This document shows, one piece after another, positions 40,494-53,167 of a stretch of 64,000 bases of DNA; position 1 is the stretch's first letter; every line of letters starts with the position of its first letter. Made by a program: the position numbers and the translations under genes. Under the pieces are notes generated by a model that saw nothing but the letters and a program-made list of their open reading frames with translations, was not told the origin of the DNA and did not search any database. The stretch comes from Shinella granuli (GTDB lineage Bacteria; Pseudomonadota; Alphaproteobacteria; Rhizobiales; Rhizobiaceae), in assembly GCF_004341885.1 (NCBI RefSeq), contig NZ_SLVX01000016.1, positions 62,001-126,000 of the forward strand. The letters run 5' to 3'.

Positions 40494-41963
40494 TCAAAGC
40501 CCTGCGACGCAGACATATTTGATTTCGAGGAAGCCCTCGATGCCGTATTTGGAGCCCTCGCGGCCGAGGCCAGACTGCTTGACGCCGCCGAAGGGCGCCA
40601 TCTCGTTGGCGATCAGGCCGGAATTCACGCCGACGATGCCCGCCTCCAATGCCTCCGCGACGCGCCAGACCCGAGCCATGTCCTTCGCGTAGAAATACGA
40701 GGCAAGGCCGTATTCGCTGTCGTTCGCCATGGCGATGACCTCGTCCTCGTCCCTGAACGAAATGATCGGTGCCAACGGGGCGAAGGTCTCTTCCGCCGCC
40801 ACCTTCATCGCCTGCGTGACGCCGGTGATGACCGTCGGCTCGTAGAAGGTGCCGCCGAGCACGCTGCGCTTGCCGCCCGCCACCAGCCGGCCGCCCTTCT
40901 CCAGCGCGTCCGCCACATGCTCCTCGATCTTGGCGACGGCCTTGTCGTCGATCAGCGGACCTTGCGTGATGCCGGCGTCCGTGCCCCGGCCGAGCGTGAT
41001 CGCAGAAACCTTCGCCAGCAGCTTCTCCGTGAAGGCTTCGACGACGCTTTCCTGCACATAGATGCGGTTGGCGCACACGCAGGTCTGGCCCGCATTGCGG
41101 AACTTCGAGATCATCGCGCCGTCGACAGCCGCATCGAGGTCGGCGTCGTCGAAGACGATGAAGGGTGCGTTGCCACCGAGTTCCAGCGACAGGCGCTTGA
41201 TGCCGTCGGCAGCCTCCTTCATCAGCCAACGCCCGACGCCGGTCGAGCCGGTGAAGGTGATCTTGGCGACCTTGGGGTTATGGCAGAACTCCGTGCCGAT
41301 CGGCCGCGCCTCGCCGGTGACGACGGAGAAGACACCCGCCGGCACGCCGGCACGCTCGGCGAGCACGGCAAGCGCCAGCGCGGAGAGCGGCGTCTGCGAG
41401 GCGGGCTTCAGCAGCATGGAGCAGCCGGCGGCGAGCGCCGGGCCGGCCTTGCGGGTGATCATGCCGTTGGGAAAGTTCCAGGGCGTGATGGCGGCGCAGA
41501 CACCGACCGGCTGCTTCAGCACCAGGATGCGCTGGCCGGCATTGGCGCCGGGGATGATATCGCCATCGATGCGCTTTGCCTCTTCGGCGAACCATTCGAG
41601 ATAGGCGGCGTTGGCGATCACCTCGCCTTTCGCCTCGGCGAGCGGCTTGCCCTGTTCCGAGGTGAGGATCAGCGCGAGATCGTCGGCATTGTCGAGGATG
41701 AGCTGGAACCAGGTGTTCAGCACCTTGGCACGCTCCTTGGCGGTGCGCCTGGCCCAGAGCTTCTGCGCCGTCTCGGCGGCGTCGATGGCGGCGGAAACCT
41801 CCTCGCGCGAGAGCGAGGGAACCTCGGCGATCACGGAGCCGTCGAAGGGATCGGTGACGGGGAAGGTCCTGCCATCGGCGGCGCAAACCCAGCGGCCGGC
41901 GACGAAGGCCTTGTCGGCGAGCAGGCTTGCATCCTTGAGCGCGGTTTTCAGCGGGTGCGTCAT
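40494..41963 (-). CDS. Aldehyde dehydrogenase, probable sulfolactaldehyde dehydrogenase
   Basis: NAD(P)-dependent aldehyde dehydrogenase, 489 residues, annotated by homology as succinate-semialdehyde-type. The catalytic cysteine is Cys295 (NAGQTCVCANR) and the general base Glu261 (LELGGNAPF); the cofactor motif FTGSTGVG is intact. As the last gene of the sulfoquinovose operon it should oxidise 3-sulfolactaldehyde, released by the KDSG aldolase, to 3-sulfolactate. The ATG at 41963 overlaps the exporter stop (ATGA). Its identity as a sulfolactaldehyde enzyme comes from context; the protein alone would fit succinate semialdehyde. Confidence 0.88.
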   Translation of the reverse strand: MTHPLKTALKDASLLADKAFVAGRWVCAADGRTFPVTDPFDGSVIAEVPSLSREEVSAAIDAAETAQKLWARRTAKERAKVLNTWFQLILDNADDLALILTSEQGKPLAEAKGEVIANAAYLEWFAEEAKRIDGDIIPGANAGQRILVLKQPVGVCAAITPWNFPNGMITRKAGPALAAGCSMLLKPASQTPLSALALAVLAERAGVPAGVFSVVTGEARPIGTEFCHNPKVAKITFTGSTGVGRWLMKEAADGIKRLSLELGGNAPFIVFDDADLDAAVDGAMISKFRNAGQTCVCANRIYVQESVVEAFTEKLLAKVSAITLGRGTDAGITQGPLIDDKAVAKIEEHVADALEKGGRLVAGGKRSVLGGTFYEPTVITGVTQAMKVAAEETFAPLAPIISFRDEDEVIAMANDSEYGLASYFYAKDMARVWRVAEALEAGIVGVNSGLIANEMAPFGGVKQSGLGREGSKYGIEGFLEIKYVCVAGL

Positions 41964-42730
41964 GAGAGATCTCCGAAAAGCTTGAGGAAGGCGGGCGCGG
42001 CGAGCGACAGGCCGGACAGGAACAGAAGACAGAAGGCGACACGTCTCAGGCCCGTCGGCGTCAGCGGCGGCGGGTAGAGGCGGGCGAGCGCGGTGAAGGC
42101 CATGACGACCGGGATCGCGAGCAGGCCCCACCAGAAGGATGCGGACGGCATGTTGCCGGCCAGCCCCACCAGAAACAGGCGCAGGATGCCGTTGACGGCG
42201 AAGATGGCGACAAGCGTTTCGCGGATGGAAACCGGCCGCAGCGGCTGGCGGTAGAAATGATAGACGAGCGGCGGGCCGGCCGTGGAGAAAAGCCCGCCCA
42301 TGACCCCGGCAATCGCCCCGAAGAAGACGAAGGAGCCCGGTCCCGACGGCTTTTCGTAGGGTGCGGGCCTGAGGAGCAGTTGGAGGCTGGAAAGGACGAT
42401 GATTACCCCGAGCACCAGTTTCAGCCAGTCGAGGGAGGCCGCGAGCAACAGGCCGAGCAAGCAGTAACCGAGGACGAGGAAGGCGAGGCTGACGAAGATC
42501 ACCAGCAGGAATTCGCGCCTTGCGATGTCGCGCCAGCCCCTGGCGAGCACCTGCGCCGCATTGACGAGCCCGAGGATGCCGACGAGAACGGCCGCATCCG
42601 GCAGCGGCACGACGCCCGTCAGCCCCACGCCGCCCATCATCAGCAGGCCGAGGGCGAAGCCGGTCAGCGTCTGCACATAGGAGGCGCCCGCCGCGAGCAG
42701 CAGGAGGACGGCAAGGCTTGCCGTGTCCAT
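41960..42730 (-). CDS. TauE/SafE family exporter, probable sulfolactate exporter
   Basis: Inner-membrane TSUP permease, 256 residues, with about eight hydrophobic segments in two repeated halves (MDTASLAVLLLLAAGASYV; GAIAGVMGGLFSTAGPPLVY). The GLFSTAGPP motif of the second half is typical of the family. In sulfoglycolytic operons such proteins export the C3 sulfonate end product, here 3-sulfolactate. It overlaps the dehydrogenase downstream and begins two bases from the sulfoquinovosidase stop, so the three are tightly coupled. Confidence 0.87.
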   Translation of the reverse strand: MDTASLAVLLLLAAGASYVQTLTGFALGLLMMGGVGLTGVVPLPDAAVLVGILGLVNAAQVLARGWRDIARREFLLVIFVSLAFLVLGYCLLGLLLAASLDWLKLVLGVIIVLSSLQLLLRPAPYEKPSGPGSFVFFGAIAGVMGGLFSTAGPPLVYHFYRQPLRPVSIRETLVAIFAVNGILRLFLVGLAGNMPSASFWWGLLAIPVVMAFTALARLYPPPLTPTGLRRVAFCLLFLSGLSLAAPAFLKLFGDLS

Positions 42731-42732
42731 GA

Positions 42733-52050: not shown

Positions 52051-52090
52051 TCTATCCTCCCGTTGATGGAGCGCACAAAGCGCCTGGCAT

Positions 52091-53167
52091 TCAGTTGATG
52101 ACGCGTTCGCTTGCGGCATCGAAAAGATGGATTTTCGTGGGGTCGACGCCGATCCGGAATTCCGAGCCGGGCTCTGGCCGCATCTCCGGCGGCATGCGCG
52201 CGGTCAGCACGTCGCCGCCGACGGCAAAGTGCACCAGCGTGTCCGAGCCGAGCGGCTCGACGACCTGCACGCGGGCGACAAGCACGGCCGCCGGATCGGC
52301 TGCCGTGCCAAAATGTTCCGGCCGGATGCCGACGACCACGTCGCGGCCTTCCACACCGGTCTCGCGCCCGGCCCGCACGGCCTCCAGCCGCAGCTTGTTG
52401 CCGTCTGCAAAGGCAAGACAGCCCGCCTCGACCTTCGCCTTGGCGAAGTTCATCGCCGGCGAACCGACGAAGCCGCCGACGAAAACGCTTTGCGGCCGGT
52501 TGTAGACCTCGTCGGGCGTGCCGACCTGCTCGATATCGCCGCCCTTGAGGATGACGATGCGATCGGCGAGCGTCATGGCCTCGACCTGGTCGTGCGTGAC
52601 ATAGATGATCGTCGTGCCGATCTGCTGGTGCAGACGCTTGATCTCGGTGCGCACCTGGCCGCGCAGCTTGGCGTCGAGATTGGACAGTGGCTCGTCGAAC
52701 AGAAAGACCTTCGGCCGGCGCACGATGGCGCGCCCCATGGCGACGCGCTGGCGCTGGCCGCCGGAAAGCTGGCCGGGGCGGCGCTCGAGCAGATGGGAAA
52801 TGCCGAGCATCTCCGCAGCTTCATTGATGCGGACATCCGCTTCGCGCGCCGGCACGCCATGAACCTTCAGGCTGAACCCCATGTTCTCGCGCACCGTCTT
52901 GTGCGGATAGAGCGCATAGTCCTGGAAGACCATGGCGATGTCGCGCTCGCGCGGCGGCAGGCGGTTGACCACCTTCTCGCCGATGCGGATCTCGCCGCCG
53001 CTGATGCTTTCGAGGCCGGCGACCATGCGCAGCGTCGTGGACTTGCCGCAGCCCGAGGGGCCGACGAAGACGACGAACTCGCCATCGGCGATTTCAAGGT
53101 CGACGCCCTTCACGATACGCAGCGAACCGTAACTTTTTTCCAGCTTTCGCAGGCTGACAGAAGCCAT
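52091..53167 (-). CDS. ABC transporter ATP-binding protein (UgpC/MalK type), sulfoquinovose system
   Basis: ATPase of the sulfoquinovose importer and first gene of the 11-gene operon, 358 residues. Walker [21 protein letters not shown], signature LSGGQRQR, Walker [13 protein letters not shown] and [14 protein letters not shown] are present, followed by a regulatory domain ([22 protein letters not shown]). The ATG at 53167 has GGGAGAGG close upstream. A LacI-type operator lies about 45 bases ahead, so the whole pathway is likely repressed in the absence of sulfoquinovose. Confidence 0.93.

Follow-up and report, generated by a model that had tools for sequence, protein, structure and literature searches.

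Few organosulfur compounds are more abundant than sulfoquinovose (SQ), and the genes of sulfoquinovosidases (SQases) serve as markers of its breakdown. Plasmids of Rhizobium, Ensifer, and Sinorhizobium share one order of 11 sulfo-Entner-Doudoroff (sulfo-ED) genes, including an SQase of glycoside hydrolase family GH31, followed by lacI. Clusters of a second type, described from Arthrobacter and Flavobacterium, use the NAD+-dependent SQase SqgA of family GH188; in the accessible part of the report on them, GH188 clusters were without GH31 and the two families were presented as complementary (PMC10755693). In this study, we analyzed a stretch of 64,000 nucleotides from Shinella granuli (hereafter, the window), in which an 11-gene operon (40494-53167, minus strand), best read as a complete sulfo-ED operon for SQ, is followed by a divergent lacI gene and by a satellite with genes for a GH188 SqgA and for another SmoF-like binding protein, SBP2 (Table 1). 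We consider it probable that these genes form a self-contained, LacI-controlled sulfo-ED cassette of Shinella plasmids, in which two SQases and two capture proteins depend on one importer and sulfolactate is exported. The sulfo-ED pathway itself is ordinary; the satellite is the least expected and notable part.

Rhizobium sp. WSM4643 (pWSM4643_1) has the same 11 genes in the same order and then a divergent lacI gene, with protein identities to the window of 64-90% across the operon and 66% for the regulator, and with operator-like sites before both operon and lacI. Unlike the window, its fetched stretch contains neither a GH188 gene nor a second binding-protein gene, and homology ends at the lacI stop. 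Ensifer adhaerens CTYH.Ch1 carries the same 11 genes in order and then lacI, and a plasmid of R. leguminosarum Vaf-108 and the genome G057 give tblastn matches for each gene in turn; in G057, the gene for the SmoF-type binding protein (L103, 14512-15743) matches in two pieces, indicating a broken gene or a sequencing error. The Pseudomonas putida SQ1 pathway was compared at the enzyme level, at which the SQ dehydrogenase of the window is 60% identical to PpSQDH. The gene order common to Rhizobium, Ensifer, and Sinorhizobium is beyond chance, which argues that the operon is real, and the presence of the same 11 genes and lacI in several rhizobial genera agrees with the earlier note on this DNA, which had described the pathway chemistry as not new.

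That note had also claimed 11 co-directional, tightly joined genes for all pathway steps, and both parts of the claim held. A codon-usage gene call gave 11 adjacent intact open reading frames (ORFs) with strong codon-position signal, each of which belongs to the expected family in Pfam and NCBIfam profiles. The order of transcription is ATP-binding cassette (ABC) ATPase, SBP1, two permeases, IlvD/Edd dehydratase, HpcH/HpaI aldolase, SMP-30 lactonase, short-chain dehydrogenase/reductase (SDR), GH31, TauE, and aldehyde dehydrogenase. Of the 10 junctions, two overlap by 4 bp and six are spaced by 2-11 bp; the remaining two gaps measure 40 and 79 bp, and the inverted repeat in the latter is a possible hairpin for differential expression. 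The ATPase start, and with it the operon end, was placed at 53167 rather than 53113, in agreement with the annotation of the 1077-bp ATPase gene in the 91% identical cassette of Shinella sp. WSC3-e.

The assignment to SQ was supported by both overall similarity and individual residues. SQ proteins are the nearest solved structures of the GH31 enzyme (5OHS/5OHY, which we take to be the Agrobacterium SQase), of SBP1 (SmoF, 7NBZ), and of the SDR (9GWU, "Sulfoquinovose 1-dehydrogenase"), and the structure matched by the aldehyde dehydrogenase, 8C54, is presumably R. leguminosarum RlGabD. All five residues of the KERWY sulfonate set (K245, E270, R283, W286, and Y491), with positions following the AtSQase sulfonate-recognition set, are present in the GH31 enzyme along with the acid/base D455. 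SBP1 equals SmoF at 12 of 12 checked positions, which include SmoF ligand contacts. The SDR keeps nine of the 11 PpSQDH residues named in the accessible part of PMC12133307, sulfonate-binding Arg152 included, and the aldehyde dehydrogenase keeps Arg171, Arg289, Cys295, Cys297, Glu261, and Trp-Asn-Phe 162-164 (residues from the accessible part of PMC10599462). The KERWY set of the SQase, the SDR residues, and Arg171/Arg289/Cys295/Glu261 of the predicted sulfolactaldehyde (SLA) dehydrogenase bear out the proposal of a complete sulfo-ED pathway; that the pathway enzymes act on non-sulfonated sugars only is unlikely. The roles of the lactonase, dehydratase, and aldolase are predicted at the family level, and the dehydratase gene is labelled "araD" in annotated rhizobial clusters.

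The satellite locus, which the note had mentioned but not identified, is real, consisting of sqgA and the SBP2 gene up to 57222. The structures matched by the window SqgA, 8QC2 and 8QC3, are FlSqgA and ArSqgA, according to the available portion of PMC10755693. Like these enzymes of Flavobacterium and Arthrobacter, it belongs to GH188 and retains the SQ and sulfonate contacts, with seven of the seven placeable ArSqgA side chains kept (Lys107, Tyr136, Arg166, Lys172, Glu189, His193, and His321). ArSqgA Glu163, placed by the same offset, corresponds to Arg in the window SqgA, with Glu one place further. As printed in PMC10755693, Glu163 lands on Val of the 8QC3 chain, with Glu one residue on, and the offset fits eight other residues named in the accessible text; possibly, the printed number is a misprint. 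The start of sqgA given by the gene caller (55672) was rejected, since it truncates the first nucleotide-binding strand; with 55717 as the start, the score is 409 rather than 388 bits.

SBP2 equals SmoF at 11 of the 12 checked positions, and His13 is replaced by Gly, as in a GH188-linked relative. It forms a clade with the binding protein of G227, a genome of the same family (100/98 support), apart from the SmoF/SBP1 group in a 17-row tree, in which matches below 85% coverage were omitted and the two-piece G057 copy is hence absent. The genome contains no near copy of the MalF-type permease of the operon, the other 25 matches being only 25-39% identical, so SBP2 most likely uses the importer of the operon. 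In G227 (L102), an SBP2-like gene and sqgA also form a divergent pair, which heads genes for an ATPase, permeases, a dehydratase, an aldolase, SQ dehydrogenase (SQDH), and LacI. No GH31 SQase was detected in that genome, which differs from the window in this respect.

The pairing of GH31 with GH188 is unusual, though some Burkholderiales also have both. Published clusters of the Arthrobacter/Flavobacterium type are without GH31 in the accessible part of their description; unlike these, the window has a GH31 gene 10 kb from sqgA. Burkholderia sp. Ax-1724 (L008) and plasmids of B. multivorans and Paraburkholderia caribensis likewise depart from the published pattern, with GH31, GH188, and sulfo-ED genes in one locus; they differ from the window in gene order, and B. 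multivorans has one binding protein. The GH188 gene of P. caribensis (L142, 4232-5343) matches in two pieces and may be broken, unless a sequencing error is the cause. The dual-SQase locus of B. multivorans (L141, 33000-59000) includes glycerol kinase and glycerol-3-phosphate dehydrogenase genes, suggesting that SQ-glycerol is the real substrate there.

Across a family sample of 297 genomes, including the source genome, in which up to six (GH188) or four (GH31) first-look candidates were scored per genome, GH188 was found in 74, GH31 in 17, and both in one, the source genome itself. Without it, the counts are 73 and 16 of 296, and none has both against 3.9 expected (hypergeometric 0.009, with kinship ignored). 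The class sample (385 genomes; 29 with GH188, four with GH31, both in the source genome only) holds too few to say more. Within the genus, two of 21 genomes carry GH188, and the same two carry GH31, approximately 10 kb apart on one contig in each; in the second of these, G692, the 9 kb compared match the WSC3-e copy at 95-98% identity. GH188 occurs in 22 and GH31 in 35 plasmid records, with both in at least five among the 25 GH31 records listed; two of these hold the same Shinella copy, and one has a two-piece GH188 gene. Among 80 named GH188 loci (the best 80 of at least 591 confirmed), GH31 lies in the flank of one, L008, the flanks spanning at most 10 kb, so that a farther GH31 gene would be missed. 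A Neosphaerochaeta rumen genome and two genomes of a rumen collection have both SQases, according to the accessible part of PMC13219744; a report of GH31 and GH188 in one sulfo-ED cluster was not found in open-licence main texts.

Operon and satellite also appear to share their control. The nine-base word AATAGCGCT occurs four times in the 64 kb, where 0.16 occurrences are expected and none of 100 shuffles reaches four, and all copies lie in two divergent intergenic regions, two between operon and lacI and two between sqgA and the SBP2 gene. Of the five TAATAGCGCTR matches in the 6.59-Mb genome, four lie in these two regions. A palindromic core, TAGCGCTA, is contained in three of the four window sites. 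The same core stands between the ATPase gene and lacI in WSM4643, Vaf-108, Ensifer, G057, G204, and G002, upstream of sqgA in G002, and twice between the SBP2-like gene and sqgA in G227, and WSC3-e has two cores in each of its operon/lacI and sqgA/SBP2 regions. The full palindrome ATAATAGCGCTATTAT has one copy in each of two Rhizobium records. In B. multivorans, the core occurs twice, once between lacI and the dehydratase gene and once between the SQDH gene and sqgA. Across the 80 named GH188 loci, the core was found five times in 1.39 Mb, and it is missing in the P. caribensis stretch, in a further two loci with GH31 (L107, L108), and in three GH188 loci of the family (L112-L114). At the satellite, operator-like sites overlap the -10-like hexamers of both genes, but the promoter-like matches (four, with 2.2 expected) give a weak signal. 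We infer that the LacI protein represses operon and satellite via a common operator, and the palindrome could serve as a searchable signature for SQ regulons in Rhizobiaceae.

In the proposed mechanism, SBP1 or SBP2 would capture SQ glycosides, mainly sulfoquinovosyl glycerol, for import via the one shared ABC importer. Intracellular hydrolysis would follow by two mechanisms, the GH31 enzyme being retaining and alpha-specific and the GH188 enzyme acting on both anomers through transient C3 oxidation with NAD+. The SQ released would pass through SQ dehydrogenase, lactonase, dehydratase, and aldolase to pyruvate and SLA, and SLA would be oxidized to 3-sulfolactate and exported by TauE, and the LacI protein would repress both units at the shared operator. 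A gene resembling that of sulfolactate sulfo-lyase B (SuyB), which presumably carries PF04295, was not found in the genome, whose single PF04295 match is galactarate-dehydratase-like and under the cutoff of that model. Because a TauE-type exporter is present and no SuyB-like gene was found, 3-sulfolactate is likely excreted as the end product. In the accessible part of a 2026 study, 13C-SQ labelled a Shinella sequence type, whose nearest genomes were associated with sulfo-ED (PMC13372026).

Two SQase chemistries under one apparent operator raise the question of why both are worth keeping. Tentatively, the satellite may widen the diet: SBP2 might capture SQ glycosides with other aglycones or a beta linkage, the anomer-blind GH188 enzyme might open what GH31 cannot, and one LacI protein sensing SQ or a derivative might run both. 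If true, the cassette would be a sulfoglycolytic regulon for two substrate classes under one LacI repressor. The cassette is also a system in which the use of beta-linked or other SQ glycosides can be tested cleanly.

Several observations weigh against the cassette as we read it. A fifth TAATAGCGCTR lies elsewhere in the genome (contig C13), and seven matches to the reversed control pattern were counted genome-wide. The core is absent from the dual-SQase locus L008, from five clusters with GH31 and a SmoF-type importer (L104, L105, and L109-L111, in whose fetched stretches no dehydratase was found), and from the inspected named GH188 loci with importer or binding-protein relatives (L005, L007, L016, L019, L049, L071, and L072). 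In the SDR, Arg154 of PpSQDH, a water-mediated sulfonate contact in the accessible text, and the C-terminal Gln260 are both Asn, and the dehydratase scores over the NCBIfam L-arabinonate dehydratase cutoff. The 28 kb fetched from G227 shows no relative of the window lactonase, SLA dehydrogenase, or TauE. Because the related operons of other genera each encode a single SQase and a single binding protein, the satellite may be redundant. Finally, Leu170 of ArSqgA, a main-chain contact, is Lys in the window SqgA; Leu stands at this position in 96% of GH188 proteins, according to the accessible part of PMC11465081.

This replacement bears on the first of two alternatives that concern the satellite only and can hold jointly, so that their probabilities need not sum to one. 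The operon could be a real sulfo-ED operon with one real SQase, and the satellite Gfo/Idh/MocA protein no glycosidase, oxidizing, for example, free SQ or another sulfosugar. Although GH188 lies in an oxidoreductase superfamily, and an SQase is already provided by the operon, we regard this as unlikely. The seven side chains for SQ hydroxyls and sulfonate are kept, GH188 proteins 62-66% identical to the window SqgA adjoin sulfo-ED genes in G002 and G227, in neither of which a GH31 SQase was found, and FlSqgA cleaves SQ-glycerol, as stated in the accessible part of PMC10755693.

The second alternative, somewhat less probable still, is that the satellite, lying beside a GH31 operon, is a functionless passenger remaining from a GH188-type cluster, as could be suspected from the same divergent pair at the head of the G227 cluster and from the absence of both SQases together in any other sampled family member. 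Both satellite genes are nevertheless intact and under purifying selection between the window and WSC3-e (dN/dS, the ratio of nonsynonymous to synonymous substitution rates, 0.091 for sqgA and 0.067 for SBP2; 0.03-0.16 for the operon genes). The satellite promoters keep operator-like sites, with two full cores there in WSC3-e, and operon and satellite stay joined in two plasmid contexts.

The operon, lacI, sqgA, and the SBP2 gene form a 14-gene block in Shinella. At 54447-54449, the stop codon of lacI, homology with Ensifer, G057, and two Rhizobium records breaks off (for Vaf-108, approximately 500 bases beyond this point were compared). With Shinella WSC3-e and WSD5-1, homology extends over 40488-57269 at 91.3% and stops on both sides, where the flanks differ from those of the window, and with Shinella HZN7 all of the 28.7 kb compared is covered at 98.1%. 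These three matching records are plasmids. The WSC3-e and WSD5-1 copies are identical (100% over 19 kb), and the G692 copy closely resembles them; two plasmid contexts rather than three were thus seen, and independent support for a moving block is thin, a further point on the opposing side. In the simplest reading, a GH31-type operon and the head of a cluster of the GH188 type would have come together in the Shinella block, the alternative being loss in the other genera. RepA profiles matched nine genes over cutoff in the genome, none of them on contig C16, which contains the window. Contamination or misassembly of the window was considered unlikely from the 28.7 kb at 98.1% in HZN7 (the genome has 3.5% contamination and 97 contigs). 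The cassette ATPase gene of the HZN7 plasmid (L137, 17602-18638) falls into two tblastn pieces and is missing from the listed annotation; it may be broken.

An operon serving sulfofucose through an ED-like sulfofucolytic pathway, possibly with its neighbors at 37228-40255, has very little to recommend it. Such a pathway has the same reaction logic and three shared families (PMC12421959), and lactonase, SDR, and MR_MLE genes do adjoin the operon. The sulfofucose dehydratase, however, belongs to PF13378/PF02746 and that of the operon to PF00920/PF24877, GH31 and SmoF are SQ proteins, the neighboring dehydratase gene lies on another replicon in WSC3-e, and homology with the WSC3-e cassette stops at 40488, and the sulfofucose reading was rejected for the operon and for 37228-40255 alike. 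A non-sulfonated sugar-acid pathway of the arabinose, xylose, or glucose type is hardly credible either, for although the NCBIfam L-arabinonate dehydratase and succinate-semialdehyde dehydrogenase subfamily models score above cutoff (D-xylose 1-dehydrogenase stays below), the nearest structures of GH31, binding protein, and SDR are SQ proteins, sulfonate-binding residues are kept, and a TauE-type exporter is in the operon.

Table 1. Features of the predicted cassette (window positions; bits are profile or structure-match scores)
Feature	Position	Strand	Evidence
SLA dehydrogenase, RlGabD/SlaB type, PF00171 (predicted)	40494..41963	-	907 bits to 8C54
TauE/SafE-type exporter, probably for 3-sulfolactate	41960..42730	-	PF01925, 51 bits (cutoff 32.6)
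GH31 sulfoquinovosidase (predicted)	42733..44724	-	1250 bits to "yihQ" structures 5OHS/5OHY
Sulfoquinovose 1-dehydrogenase, SDR (predicted)	44735..45493	-	304 bits to 9GWU; 60% identical to PpSQDH
6-Sulfogluconolactonase, SMP-30/SGL (predicted)	45502..46386	-	PF08450, 284 bits
2-Keto-3,6-dideoxy-6-sulfogluconate (KDSG) aldolase, HpcH/HpaI (predicted)	46397..47200	-	PF03328, 143 bits; 217 bits to 2V5J
6-Sulfogluconate dehydratase, IlvD/Edd (predicted)	47212..48945	-	PF00920 + PF24877; dehydratases 8EJ0, 617 bits, and 5J83, 602 bits
ABC permease, MalG/SmoG type	48942..49796	-	PF00528
ABC permease, MalF/SmoH type	49800..50735	-	PF00528
Inverted repeat of 12 bp, gap (79 bp) between SBP1 and permease genes	50768..50799	.	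Inverted-repeat match
SmoF-type SQ/SQ-glycerol binding protein SBP1 (predicted)	50815..52050	-	704 bits to SmoF 7NBZ
ABC ATPase, UgpC/MalK/SmoE type, first gene of the operon	52091..53167	-	475 bits (cutoff 432), scored with the shorter start
Operator-like site O1, upstream of operon	53213..53226	+	Core kept in relatives
Operator-like site O2, touching lacI start	53386..53399	+	Kept in relatives
LacI-family regulator, divergent from operon	53396..54448	+	PF00356, PF13377
GH188 NAD+-dependent sulfoquinovosidase SqgA (predicted)	54602..55717	-	409 bits to FlSqgA 8QC2, 406 to ArSqgA 8QC3
Operator-like site O3, over sqgA -10-like hexamer	55810..55823	-	Word/core match
Operator-like site O4, over SBP2-gene -10-like hexamer	55930..55940	-	Core with one change, TAGCGCTG
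Second SmoF-like binding protein SBP2, no permease gene alongside	55975..57222	+	524 bits to SmoF

The genes around the cassette are of other kinds. Beside the operon, 37228-40255 (plus strand) holds lactonase, SDR, and glucarate-dehydratase-like enolase-superfamily genes, the last of which has 88% identity to its counterparts on Sinorhizobium meliloti plasmids and, in WSC3-e, lies on a different replicon; this segment probably encodes an acid-sugar pathway. Further left, 20830-36392 carries two more enolase-superfamily dehydratase-like genes, two ABC importers, and GntR/IclR regulators, and the region left of the operon can be described from its gene families as a run of putative sugar-acid catabolic clusters. 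On the other side, 57603-62844 (plus strand), which is outside the block common to WSC3-e, looks like a siderophore-uptake locus, with genes for an AraC regulator, a TonB receptor, a major facilitator superfamily (MFS) transporter, a methyltransferase, and a cupin. Its TonB-dependent receptor gene is split into two ORFs (58525-60306 and 60303-60656, plus strand) over successive parts of the barrel domain, either as a broken gene or through a sequencing error; the HZN7 copy is annotated as a single 2118-bp gene.

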